Below are positions 21,605-27,152 of a stretch of 64,000 bases of DNA, piece after piece. Both the position numbers and the translations under genes were made by a program. This stretch comes from Dongia rigui (GTDB lineage Bacteria; Pseudomonadota; Alphaproteobacteria; Dongiales; Dongiaceae). The stretch is taken from contig NZ_JAXCLX010000002.1 of the NCBI RefSeq assembly GCF_034044635.1, positions 372,001-436,000 of the forward strand. The letters run 5' to 3'. Every line of letters starts with the position of its first letter. Within the stretch, counting starts at the first letter, position 1. A model generated the notes under the pieces. It searched no databases. It worked only from the letters and a program-made list of their open reading frames with translations, and had not been told where the DNA came from.

Positions 21605-22873
21605 TCAGCCCTTGCCGGCGCTGTTCTTGGCCGGGGTGTCCTTGTCGATGGCGGCCTGGATCGCGTCCATGAAATCCATGTCGGCGATGATGCCGGTCAT
21701 CTTGAAGTTCTGCACCACGATGCCGTCGGCCTTGGCATTGGTGAAATCGGTTTTCGAAAAGCGGCAATCGGCGATGATGGTCGGATAGACCGCGTCCTTG
21801 TGGCCCTTGATCTTGATGATCTCGGGGCCAAGATCGGCCTCGCGGAAGAAGGTCCCTTCCAGCACGCTTTCGGTAAACTTGGCACCACGCAGCTCGGCGC
21901 CGGTGAGGTCCGCGCGGCTCATATCGGTATTGGTGAAATTGGCGAGGTTGGCGTTGGCGCCTTTGAGGATGGTGCCGCGCAGCTTGGCATTGGTGAAATT
22001 GGCGCCGGTGAGCTTGCTGCCGGAAAGATCGAGGCCGGAAAAATCGGCGCCGGTGAAATCCGCGCGCTCGCCTTTCTCGCCGCCCGTTGCCACCCATTCG
22101 CCATGGGCGGCGATGAGCGCTTTGAGGCGCACGATCGCGTCCGGGGAATCGTCGACCTGCAGGGCGTGCGAGGTGTCGATATAACCCGCCATGGCGGTCG
22201 ACATGTCGACGCCGAACAAATTGGTGTCTTTGAGCGTCACATGGTCGAGCTTGGCGCCCGCCACCTTGGCGCGGTCGAGCCTGGCGCCGGTCAAGTCGGC
22301 ATTGGAGAGATTGGCGCCGGAGAGGTCGCAACCCTTCAACTGCGTGCCGGTGAGGTCCGCCCCCACCAATTCCGCATGGCGCAGATTGGCGCCCGAAAGA
22401 TTGGCGTTGCGGATGACGGCGCCATTGATCTTGGCGCGTTCCAGATTGGCGCCGGAAAGGGTCAACTGGTTCATCTCCGACTTGTCGCGCAGGGCGGTGG
22501 CGCCGCCATCGACCAGCAGGTTGCCGCTCCTGAGATCGGCACCCGAAAGCTGCGCCTTGGTGAAATTGGCACCCTTCAACTGCGCGCCGCGCAGATTGGC
22601 ATCCTCGCAATCGGCACCGGTGAGATCCGTGCCGGAAAGGTCGGCGCCGAAGAGGTCGGCACCGTTGAGATTGGCGCCGGCCAGATCGCAATTGACGAGC
22701 TTGGCGCCGACCATCTTGGCCTTGGCGAGGTTGACACCGCGCAACGATGCGCCCTCGAGTGCGAATTTGCTGAGATCGACGCGCCGGCCGCCCTTTTCCT
22801 TGTTGAGCCAAAGGCGGTGCGCGGCGAGGGCGCCCCACAATTCATCGACATCCATCAGGGCTTGCTCGGACAT
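21605..22873 (-). CDS. pentapeptide repeat protein
   Basis: Protein of 422 residues made largely of A(D/N)LxG-type pentapeptides, which fold as a right-handed quadrilateral beta-helix. There are two blocks, about residues 38-215 and 265-375, separated by a non-repeat insert (SPDAIVRLKALIAAHGEWVATG). The first 35 residues (DVDELWGALAAHRLWLN) and the last 45 are non-repeat caps. No DNA-gyrase-protection role can be assumed, since most family members have none known. It is preceded by an 8-bp gap from the 107-residue gene on the same strand, an operon of two. Confidence 0.93.
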   Translation of the reverse strand: MSEQALMDVDELWGALAAHRLWLNKEKGGRRVDLSKFALEGASLRGVNLAKAKMVGAKLVNCDLAGANLNGADLFGADLSGTDLTGADCEDANLRGAQLKGANFTKAQLSGADLRSGNLLVDGGATALRDKSEMNQLTLSGANLERAKINGAVIRNANLSGANLRHAELVGADLTGTQLKGCDLSGANLSNADLTGARLDRAKVAGAKLDHVTLKDTNLFGVDMSTAMAGYIDTSHALQVDDSPDAIVRLKALIAAHGEWVATGGEKGERADFTGADFSGLDLSGSKLTGANFTNAKLRGTILKGANANLANFTNTDMSRADLTGAELRGAKFTESVLEGTFFREADLGPEIIKIKGHKDAVYPTIIADCRFSKTDFTNAKADGIVVQNFKMTGIIADMDFMDAIQAAIDKDTPAKNSAGKG

Positions 22874-24693: not shown

Positions 24694-25974
24694 TTATCGC
24701 TGCCGCATCCAGGCGGCGATGGGCGCCCAGACGTCGGGAGCGGCGGACCGCCCCACCATCATGCCGATATGCCCGGCCGTGGGGACCATTTCATCGATCT
24801 GGCGAAAGCGCCGGGTGAGGGCGCGGGCGCTCTCCGGCGGCACGATGCGGTCGGTGCCGGGAATGACATTGAGCGCCGGGCGGTCGAAGCCCGCCGGATT
24901 GACGACCTTGTCGGCTACTTTCCAGCTCAGTTTCTGCGGCGTGTTCTCGCCATACCAGCCAGTAAGGCATTCGCGCGCCACGGGGGCAGCAAGGCTGATG
25001 CCGTCATTGAGCCAGTCTTCCAGCGCCACGAAGCGCCTGGCGCCATTGCTCGCGGGGTCGAGTGTCCCGAAATGCTGGAATTTCCGAAGCACCTGGAAAG
25101 GATCGAGGCCAGAGAAGAACGCCTGCAGCATGTCGACCGGCAGCTCGCCCAGGATCTGCAGGAGGGGTTCGAGCTGGCGCCCGATCTGGCCCATCATCTG
25201 CGCGTGGCCGGGGTTTTCAGCGTGGAAATCCCAGGGTGTGGCGAGGAGAACCAGGCCCGCGATATCCGCCTGCCGCCGCAGGGCCAGCGCCAGCGCCAGA
25301 TTGCCCCCCATGCAATAGCCGATGATGTGGATCGGCCCGCCCGGTTCGCGCTTTACCGCATCGAGGGCCCCTTCCAAACGCCCGGCGATGTAATCGGTGA
25401 GGTCGAAGCTGCGCTCGATATAGCCGGGCGCATCCCAATCGACGACGAAGGGGTCGAAGCCGTTGGCGCCGAGCCAGCGCAGGAACGAGGCCTCGCGCTC
25501 CAGATCCAGGACGTAATAGCGGTTGACCAGCGACGGGATGACCAGCACGCGGGGCCGCGGCGTCTTGGCGTCCCGCGTGCCGCGGTAATCGCGCAGCTTG
25601 GTGGTCCCTTGATCCCAGAGGACCGGCGCCGGCGCCAAATCGCGCTGGTGGGGATGTTTCCGATAAGCCTCGATCCCGGTGAGCAGCTGGCCGAAGCGCC
25701 GCCGCCCTTCAGCCTGCAGCGCCGCCATCAGGGCCGCCGGATCCGCTTTTTGCAGCTGCGGCGCGAGATCGGCGAGGCTTTGCTGCAGCTGTGCGAGGTT
25801 TGGCGGCAGGGCTGCGTTTGGGCTTGCCGTCCGCCAGTTCTGCAAGGCGTTGTTCAATGCCGGCAAGGCGGCGGCCGAGTTCGTCCAGGTCGCTGCCGCG
25901 AGGCTGAGATGCTGCGGCAGCGGGCGCGGCCCCAGCCGGTGAACTTGGCGCTGTGTCTCCATTTGCGCTGCCAT
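24694..25974 (-). CDS. phaC: poly(3-hydroxyalkanoate) polymerase, short alphaproteobacterial type
   Basis: PHA synthase polymerising (R)-3-hydroxyacyl-CoA on the granule surface. It has 426 residues, shorter than class I enzymes (about 580) and nearer class III PhaC. The lipase-like box with the catalytic cysteine is IIGYCMGGNLALA near residue 225. The catalytic Asp is in IPGTDRIVPPES and the His in TAGHIGMMVG. PSLVNRYYVLDL and VDWDAPG are also typical. The first 88 codons overlap, in another frame, the 3' end of the PhaE-like gene. An in-frame ATG at 25962 is an alternative start. It runs with the PhaE-like gene and away from phaR. Confidence 0.93.
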   Translation of the reverse strand: MAAQMETQRQVHRLGPRPLPQHLSLAAATWTNSAAALPALNNALQNWRTASPNAALPPNLAQLQQSLADLAPQLQKADPAALMAALQAEGRRRFGQLLTGIEAYRKHPHQRDLAPAPVLWDQGTTKLRDYRGTRDAKTPRPRVLVIPSLVNRYYVLDLEREASFLRWLGANGFDPFVVDWDAPGYIERSFDLTDYIAGRLEGALDAVKREPGGPIHIIGYCMGGNLALALALRRQADIAGLVLLATPWDFHAENPGHAQMMGQIGRQLEPLLQILGELPVDMLQAFFSGLDPFQVLRKFQHFGTLDPASNGARRFVALEDWLNDGISLAAPVARECLTGWYGENTPQKLSWKVADKVVNPAGFDRPALNVIPGTDRIVPPESARALTRRFRQIDEMVPTAGHIGMMVGRSAAPDVWAPIAAWMRQR

Positions 25975-26275
25975 GGGCGGTCCCCTTCCACCAATCCTGT
26001 GCCATCCAGTCCTTGGTCATCCGGGTCCAGGCCTTGGTGAGATCGTCGCCCGAACCGCCGGCCTGGCCCATCTGCCCCAGCTGGCTCAGCCACATGCCGG
26101 GGAGCGGCATCGCCGCCATCAGCCGCGCCGCTTGCGCTGCAAGATCGGGGTTGGCGGCGACCGCCGACAGCTGGTCCTGCCACAGATCCAGCAGGCGCCG
26201 CGCCAGTTCATCAAGTTCCGGCACGCTGTCGGGTTTTTCCCCGGCCGTGCCCTGCTTTCCCGCCGAGTCAGTCAT
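25709..26275 (-). CDS. PhaE-like / PHA-associated protein overlapping phaC
   Basis: Protein of 188 residues. The N-terminal half is amphipathic helix with Trp and Gln (LLDLWQDQLSAVA, MWLSQLGQMGQ, WTRMTKDWMAQDWW). A Pro/Ala linker follows, then a heptad-like segment (LDELGRRLAGIEQRLAEL) and a Lys/Ala tail (PKRSPAAKPRTAAAKP). This matches the plan of PhaE subunits and phasin-like proteins next to short PhaC enzymes; the name is inference. It shares 266 bp with phaC in a different frame, and both frames look coding there. It is the first gene of the phaC transcript, 229 bp from the divergent phaR. Confidence 0.65.
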   Translation of the reverse strand: MTDSAGKQGTAGEKPDSVPELDELARRLLDLWQDQLSAVAANPDLAAQAARLMAAMPLPGMWLSQLGQMGQAGGSGDDLTKAWTRMTKDWMAQDWWKGTAHGSANGDTAPSSPAGAAPAAAASQPRGSDLDELGRRLAGIEQRLAELADGKPKRSPAAKPRTAAAKPRRSRAAAAKSGSGGPDGGAAG

Positions 26276-26504: not shown

Positions 26505-27152
26505 ATGATGGCTGTGCCAGGTGACCAGAACAAGGGCGACCAAGCCAAAGCCGGCGACAAGCAGGCGCCGGTCCGCATCAAGAAATACGCCAACCGCCGT
26601 CTCTACAACACGGCCACCAGTTCCTACGTGACGCTCGATTACCTGGCGCAGATGGTGCGCGAGGGGCTCGACTTCACGGTCGAGGATGCCAAGTCGGGCG
26701 AGGACATCACCCGCTCGGTGCTGACCCAGATCATCGTCGAAGAGGAATCGAAGGGGCAGAACATGCTGCCCATCAATTTCCTGCGCCAGCTGATCAGCCT
26801 TTACGGCGACAATCTCCAGTTCCTGGTTCCCGGTTATCTGGAAAAGAGCATGGAGAGCTTCGGCGCCAATCAGGAGCAGATTCGCCAGTACATGAAGGAG
26901 AACTTCGCCAACGTCCTGCCGCTCGACCGTCTCGAGGAGATGTCGAAGCAGAACATGGCCTTCTTCCAGCAGGCGATGAGCATGTGGAACCCCTTCAAGG
27001 TCGGCTCGACCGGTCCCGCTTCACCTAGCGGCGACGCGCGGCCGGAAAGTGCCCCGCGCGGCGGCGAGGAACTCTCCGATCTGAAGACCCAGATGCAGGC
27101 CCTGCAGCGGCAGCTGGAACAGCTGACCAAGGCGGGACAGAAGGCGGATTGA
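26505..27152 (+). CDS. phaR: polyhydroxyalkanoate synthesis repressor
   Basis: DNA- and granule-binding repressor of PHB genes, 215 residues. The N-terminal DNA-binding domain is nearly diagnostic: PVRIKKYANRRLYNTATSSY, VTLDYLAQMVREG, GEDITRSVLTQIIVEEE. The PHB-accumulation regulatory domains follow (MLPINFLRQLISLYGDNLQF, VPGYLEKSMESFG), and the protein ends with a heptad helix (DLKTQMQALQRQLEQLTK). Two adjacent ATGs (26505, 26508) are possible starts behind CAGGGGAG. It is divergent from the phaC unit. PhaR leaves DNA when PHB granules form and titrate it. Confidence 0.96.
   Translation: MMAVPGDQNKGDQAKAGDKQAPVRIKKYANRRLYNTATSSYVTLDYLAQMVREGLDFTVEDAKSGEDITRSVLTQIIVEEESKGQNMLPINFLRQLISLYGDNLQFLVPGYLEKSMESFGANQEQIRQYMKENFANVLPLDRLEEMSKQNMAFFQQAMSMWNPFKVGSTGPASPSGDARPESAPRGGEELSDLKTQMQALQRQLEQLTKAGQKAD

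Follow-up and report, generated by a model that had tools for sequence, protein, structure and literature searches.

Evidence for a dual-coding overlap in the class III-like phaE-phaC operon of Dongia rigui and other Alphaproteobacteria

Do both reading frames of a 266-nucleotide stretch in a PHB locus of Dongia rigui encode protein, or has one of the two genes been given a wrong end? The stretch lies in a window of 64,000 nucleotides (contig NZ_JAXCLX010000002.1, positions 372,001 to 436,000; coordinates below are those of the window). In it, a phaE-like gene for a protein of 188 amino acids (26275..25709) is followed on the same, minus strand by phaC (25974..24694), which encodes a short class III-like PHA synthase of 426 amino acids. 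The two genes overlap from 25974 to 25709, a distance that includes the phaE stop codon, and with phaC as reference the PhaE frame is +2. The initial annotation had described this overlap, and an open reading frame check reproduced its coordinates, strand and frames. Use of an alternative phaC ATG four codons further downstream would leave an overlap of 254 nt. The PHA synthesis repressor gene phaR is divergent, at 26505..27152 on the plus strand (TIGR01848, 147.7 bits, cut-off 109.45). Elsewhere in the window, a minus-strand frame at 21605-22873 encodes 422 amino acids rich in pentapeptide-like A(N/D)LxGA repeats, and a plus-strand frame reaching 24633, adjoining the end of phaC, has a very Gln/Asn-rich terminus (QQNPENPRQAQQNQQNP...).

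The accessible portion of a 2008 survey of 338 genomes reports that none of 715 candidate co-directional overlaps of at least 60 bp was real, that these were deemed annotation errors, and that the longest real one was 56 bp, in holD-rimI (PMC2478687). We propose that the D. rigui locus encodes a class III-type, two-subunit PHA synthase from co-directional phaE-like and phaC genes that overlap by 266 nt, and that both frames of the overlap would be translated and under selection. The 3' end of phaE would supply a coil followed by a basic tail, elements that class III PhaE proteins also carry C-terminally, and the same bases would supply an N-terminal extension of PhaC made up of the motif RLGPRPLPxHL and a helix. 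This extension most likely arose by overprinting early in the class Alphaproteobacteria, when phaC gained an upstream start inside phaE. We regard the proposal as a whole, a dual-coding overlap in a class III-like phaE-phaC operon, as very probable, with no peptide, ribosome-profiling or mutant data to draw on.

The two subunits and their distribution

The PhaE-like protein consists of a DLW helix upstream of the overlap (residues 21-41, 26153..26215), a variable linker, a coiled coil within the overlap (residues 127-149, 25829..25897) and a Lys/Ala-rich tail (residues 150-188, 25712..25828), all encoded on the minus strand. AlphaFold predicts the two helices with confidence, at about 90 pLDDT for the coil block, and gives low confidence to the linker and tail. 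Four positions of the DLW helix (L24, A25, L31 and W32) are nearly invariant among 50 sequences. A Pfam scan of the D. rigui protein gave no match, scans with Pfam and NCBIfam provided no usable name and no PhaE model matched. For 50 PhaE-like proteins searched at E values up to 1, PF09712 was absent among the best 25 of 60 Pfam families. Weak matches to XopR, DUF7310 and pspB were taken as noise from low-complexity or coiled-coil sequence.

The part of class III PhaE that the protein resembles is its C-terminal third. The hhalign comparison with class III PhaE aligned this C-terminal part (E 2.6e-5, probability 74.9), and a coil profile built from class III PhaE proteins also recognizes the coil. 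The heptad helix and Lys/Ala tail had been read in the initial annotation as features expected of a PhaE/phasin C-terminus, and both match the C-termini of class III PhaE proteins. For membership in class III, homology to the C-terminal coil of PhaE is therefore met by hhalign and the coil profile, and a PhaE subunit that matches PF09712 is not. Outside the Alphaproteobacteria, the four of nine class III PhaE proteins that were scanned matched PF09712, and these subunits have a DLW-type helix and a coil, with a Lys/Ala tail in several. A separate protein from a genome of the same class (G577 C13:133111-133800) does match PF09712 (E 1.5e-17), which shows that the class contains a longer PhaE as well.

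PhaC matches PHA synthases by sequence (PDB) and by fold. Cys221, Asp375 and His402, which we take to be the Cys-Asp-His triad, and the GYCMGG box are invariant in 16 aligned sequences, which satisfies the expectation of a PhaC-fold catalytic subunit with this triad and a GxCxGG box. The score against TIGR01836 (160.7 bits) is under the 365.3 cut-off, and class III membership by that cut-off is not met. It is met by the PhaC tree (61 rows), in which this PhaC family is monophyletic (SH-aLRT 99) and lies with class III on one side of a split from class I (SH-aLRT 100). The N-terminal motif RLGPRPLPQHL (residues 13-23, 25906..25938, minus strand) lies within the overlap. R13, G15-P20, H22 and L23 are invariant and L14 is kept in at least 90% of the 16 family sequences; residues 11-30 are predicted at a pLDDT of about 80. 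The class III PhaC proteins of nine loci outside the class begin at profile position 89-126, and the N-terminal extension is thus missing there.

The locus shares several features with class III operons: phaE is upstream of phaC on one strand, the C-terminal part of PhaE has a DLW helix, a coil and a Lys/Ala tail, and PhaC is on the same side of the tree. It differs in the PhaE-like protein, which is at most about half as long and was not seen to match PF09712, and in PhaC, which falls below the TIGR01836 cut-off and carries about 85 extra N-terminal residues. The overlaps differ as well. Measured from the chosen phaC start in 174 loci, the overlap has a median of 215 nt (range 113-374), whereas in seven of nine class III pairs outside the class the PhaE stop and the phaC ATG overlap by 4 nt, in frame +1.

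The arrangement is not confined to D. rigui. The short PhaC is present in all 17 genomes of the family, and in all of them the helix, the coil and an overlap of at least 100 nt in frame +2 are found. The PhaE frame runs through RLGPRPLPxHL in every one, with RRGPRPLPxHL at one locus. In an even sample of the class, 160 of 385 genomes have the short PhaC. Class counts rest on 148 loci from these genomes, two places at contig ends having been left out and the others not being among those listed. The full signature, meaning both helix and coil together with an overlap of no less than 100 nt, occurs at 114 of the 148 loci, in frame +2 each time, and spans 53 of the 69 families sampled. The 34 loci without it comprise 13 with neither helix nor coil, ten with an open frame that has the helix and lacks a recognized coil, four with a helix and only 1-99 nt of overlap, three with the helix in frame +1, two in which the frame is open and the matches to helix and coil do not pass, and two with both elements and a shorter measured overlap, from a truncated alignment start. 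Among named loci, which include Azospirillum, Magnetospirillum, Pelagibius, Terasakiella and Telmatospirillum, 76 of 80 have the full signature. Both frames are thus open and conserved in divergent relatives, as a dual-coding pair should be, and judged from this distribution the dual coding looks ancient and class-wide.

Selection on both frames

One alternative considered is that only phaC is coding, that chance alone keeps the PhaE frame open in GC-rich DNA, and that the PhaE ends follow from the PhaC motif. High GC does favor open frames, about 72% of codon-shuffled blocks are free of stops, and the Ala-rich PhaE stretch opposite GPRPLPxHL is partly forced by PhaC. Tests for selection started from 258 loci. 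Removal of 59 (class I paralogues, truncated N-termini, loci with no PRPL motif and duplicates) left 199, and removal of 25 more (11 outside the overlap set and 14 over 90% identical) left 174 representatives that are less than 90% identical over 126 nt. In each test the synonymous codons of one gene were redrawn and the other frame was scored; redraws of phaC used its own codon usage.

In D. rigui, none of 400 redraws of the phaC codons reached the real PhaE score (z 4.3), and 74.5% of them placed a stop within the first 30 PhaE codons past the motif. Redrawing the PhaE codons gave no draw in 400 that reached the real PhaC score (z 6.6). Across the 174 loci, the PhaE score had a median z of 3.78 when phaC codons were shuffled; z was above 2 at 157 loci and did not reach 2 at 17, and at 144 loci none of 400 draws matched the real score. 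Shuffling of PhaE codons gave a median z of 5.55 for the PhaC score, with z above 2 at 172 of 174 loci. Three control blocks farther down phaC, in the same frame, had median z values of 1.74, 0.72 and 0.62, against a comparable value of 3.76 for the overlap. The third frame of the overlap also scored a median z of 3.04. Because fixed synonymous sites raise any frame, this test, in which each frame is scored with its own profile, is not frame-specific, and the frames are separated only by an independent coil ruler and by counts of stops.

Both of these point to the PhaE frame. Before any choice of loci by open frame, a stop was present in the 30-codon +2 block at only 3 of 199 loci, compared with about 28% expected from shuffles of the 174-locus subset. 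The third frame had 155 stops, more than the 131.6 predicted by shuffling. The ruler was a profile of the coil in 24 class III PhaE proteins, none of them from this class. It gave the real +2 frame a mean of 8.80 bits and shuffled sequences -1.97, and the real +2 frame exceeded all 100 shuffles at 140 of 174 loci, compared with one of 174 for the +1 frame. The gap in D. rigui itself is modest (5.3 bits, compared with a shuffle mean of -1.3 and a maximum of 3.7). The coil is also kept where GC is only 40-49% (loci L231, L237, L241, L246, L250 and L254), and where the coil has been lost the +2 frame reads as nonsense. Given the rarity of stops, the independent ruler and these low-GC loci, we attach very little credence to chance opening of the PhaE frame.

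The pattern of substitutions agrees with two coding frames. Among 48 independent pairs, third-position changes per phaC codon fall from 0.369 downstream to 0.265 in the overlap, and the third-position share of changes is 0.45 in the overlap versus 0.59 downstream (lower in 43 of 48 pairs). Changes at the second position of phaC, which is the wobble position of PhaE, rise in the same pairs from 0.109 to 0.174. Ahead of the overlap, where phaE encodes the helix, its frame has more changes at the third position (0.298) than at the first (0.125) or second (0.083; 45 pairs), which is the ordinary coding pattern. Each frame of the overlap is therefore under frame-specific selection, the second property expected of a dual-coding pair. 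The initial annotation had argued for a real dual-coding region and had suggested a comparison of synonymous-site conservation in both frames; made here through the shuffles and the substitution pattern, that comparison was positive, and with the coil ruler it upholds the argument.

Start of phaC and origin of the overlap

Translation of both frames in the cell is an inference, as is initiation of phaC within phaE. In D. rigui the Shine-Dalgarno-like sequence GGAAGGGGA (25981..25989, minus strand) lies ahead of the phaC ATG at 25974 and sits inside phaE. In the phaC frame, 170 of 174 loci have a start codon at most 40 codons before the motif, compared with 51 and 120 in the other two frames, and a Shine-Dalgarno run of at least five bases precedes it at 45 of 174, compared with 1 of 51 and 11 of 120. 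Start codons for phaC are thus maintained. We infer that translation of phaC probably begins inside phaE, at a Shine-Dalgarno sequence and start codon that belong to phaC itself. Internal initiation is the likelier route because a ribosome that finishes phaE is about 250 nt beyond the phaC start, and because termination-reinitiation is reported, in the part of PMC10666635 available, to fade within a spacing of about 20 nt.

Ribosomal frameshifting that produces PhaC as a PhaE-PhaC fusion, without internal initiation, would remove the need for such a start. It could find support in the four loci of 174 that have no ATG, GTG or TTG upstream of the motif (L010, L144, L148 and L210). These four have CTG, ATT or ATC codons, at least one per locus after a Shine-Dalgarno-like run of four or five bases, and rare start codons for phaC are possible there. 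Together with the phaC-frame start at 170 loci and the enrichment of Shine-Dalgarno runs, this leaves frameshifting, judged from start sites alone, only a slim prospect.

The second doubt about the start is the one raised by genome surveys. If the true phaC start were downstream of the phaE stop, the upstream part of the phaC frame would be an annotation artefact. The available part of PMC2478687 puts most long co-directional overlaps down to mispredicted 5' ends, and class III PhaC outside the class does start near profile position 89-126. The motif in the disputed segment is, however, all but invariant in 16 family sequences and is kept without PhaE overlap, also in f13 genomes that have no PhaE-like gene; shuffles of PhaE codons abolish it at 172 of 174 loci, and starts and Shine-Dalgarno runs are maintained upstream of it. 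A downstream start is, on this evidence, scarcely credible. The initial annotation had held that relatives in which phaC starts downstream of the position corresponding to 25709 would refute dual coding. None was seen, and RLGPRPLPxHL lies inside the overlap.

An RNA element or a low synonymous rate at the 5' end, with no second protein, is hardly tenable either: conservation is also raised in the third frame, and the passages available of PMC12725619 report low synonymous rates in the first 10 or so codons of E. coli genes, but the block tested begins at the motif, about 15 codons past the D. rigui start, and spans 30-40 codons, the PhaE ruler is frame-specific and stops are avoided only in +2.

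If both frames are coding, which is the older? The PhaE coil was probably there first, with the PhaC extension overprinted on it, although the direction is inferred. Class III operons use frame +1 and the frame here is +2, which would make overprinting more than a shift of start codon; either a junction indel or some independent rearrangement would be needed as well. Overprinted viral gene pairs, as described in the accessible passages of PMC8227390, are similar in that a frame was extended or born over an older one. They differ from the present case, which is a cellular operon with both products in one pathway. The holD-rimI pair of enterobacteria is also a co-directional, out-of-frame and conserved overlap, but in the portion of PMC2478687 available it is up to 56 bp (4-5 times shorter), is limited to enterobacteria and joins functionally unrelated genes.

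Disruption of the PhaE frame in relatives had been named as a further refutation of dual coding. It does occur, as disruption or truncation, in a minority of lineages (20 of 199 loci, those without the coil). On a tree built from PhaC columns beyond the overlap, whose deepest nodes are weak, these 20 loci correspond to 11 changes in 11 tip clades; classification was partly by hand and two loci were left open. The PhaC motif is retained in these lineages. The absence of the coil from them, in about 11 independent cases, reads as later loss. In seven loci (L225, L233, L234, L238, L274, L275 and L278) the PhaE-like protein is reduced to the N-terminal DLW helix, with a stop before or near the retained PhaC motif. 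In the six loci of family f13 (L259-L264) no PhaE-like gene was found and the PhaC stretch past GPxPL is shortened, which suggests, from this one family, that the overlapped segment shrinks after loss of the partner.

Implications for alphaproteobacterial PHA synthases

The small subunit is easily passed over. In four of four Azospirillum plasmid tables (four of seven matching records; the tables are incomplete), the interval between phaR and phaC has no gene entry, and the PhaE-like gene is missing. The phaC gene is named there 'alpha/beta fold hydrolase', and the genes after it are one for an acetyl-CoA acetyltransferase and phbB. At L279 the annotated phaC shares 230 nt with the PhaE-like frame, which the table leaves out. 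The Azospirillum plasmid p4 records fit a phbCAB operon that a review assigns to plasmid 4 of A. baldaniorum Sp245 (PMC10383645, accessible in part), and phaC1 of R. rubrum lies within a phaC1-phaA-phaB operon, according to the passages available of PMC4026134. We found no description of the overlap in titles and abstracts on PhaE and PHA synthase, R. rubrum phaC and Azospirillum PHB, or in the available passages of PMC10383645, PMC9676036, PMC4026134, PMC11268599 and PMC13038957; most subscription journals and all preprints were outside the scope of this search.

The overlap is about four times longer than 56 bp and class-wide, and rules that reject long co-directional overlaps would hide such cases. 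Overprinting can be studied in this system, where the roughly 11 natural losses serve as controls. For the PHA field, the finding suggests that PHA synthases here have a second subunit that has gone unnoticed, and that these enzymes may have been expressed or deleted without their partner. We suspect that the two proteins form a complex in which the DLW helix and coil act on PhaC, and that the tail contacts the granule or DNA; these roles are inferred without an enzyme assay. The broadest reading, toward which we lean only slightly, is that the N-terminal domain of PhaC was created by overprinting the 3' end of the gene for its partner, one stretch of DNA thereby encoding parts of both subunits, which would be inherited and expressed together, and that this small subunit has been overlooked in Alphaproteobacteria.
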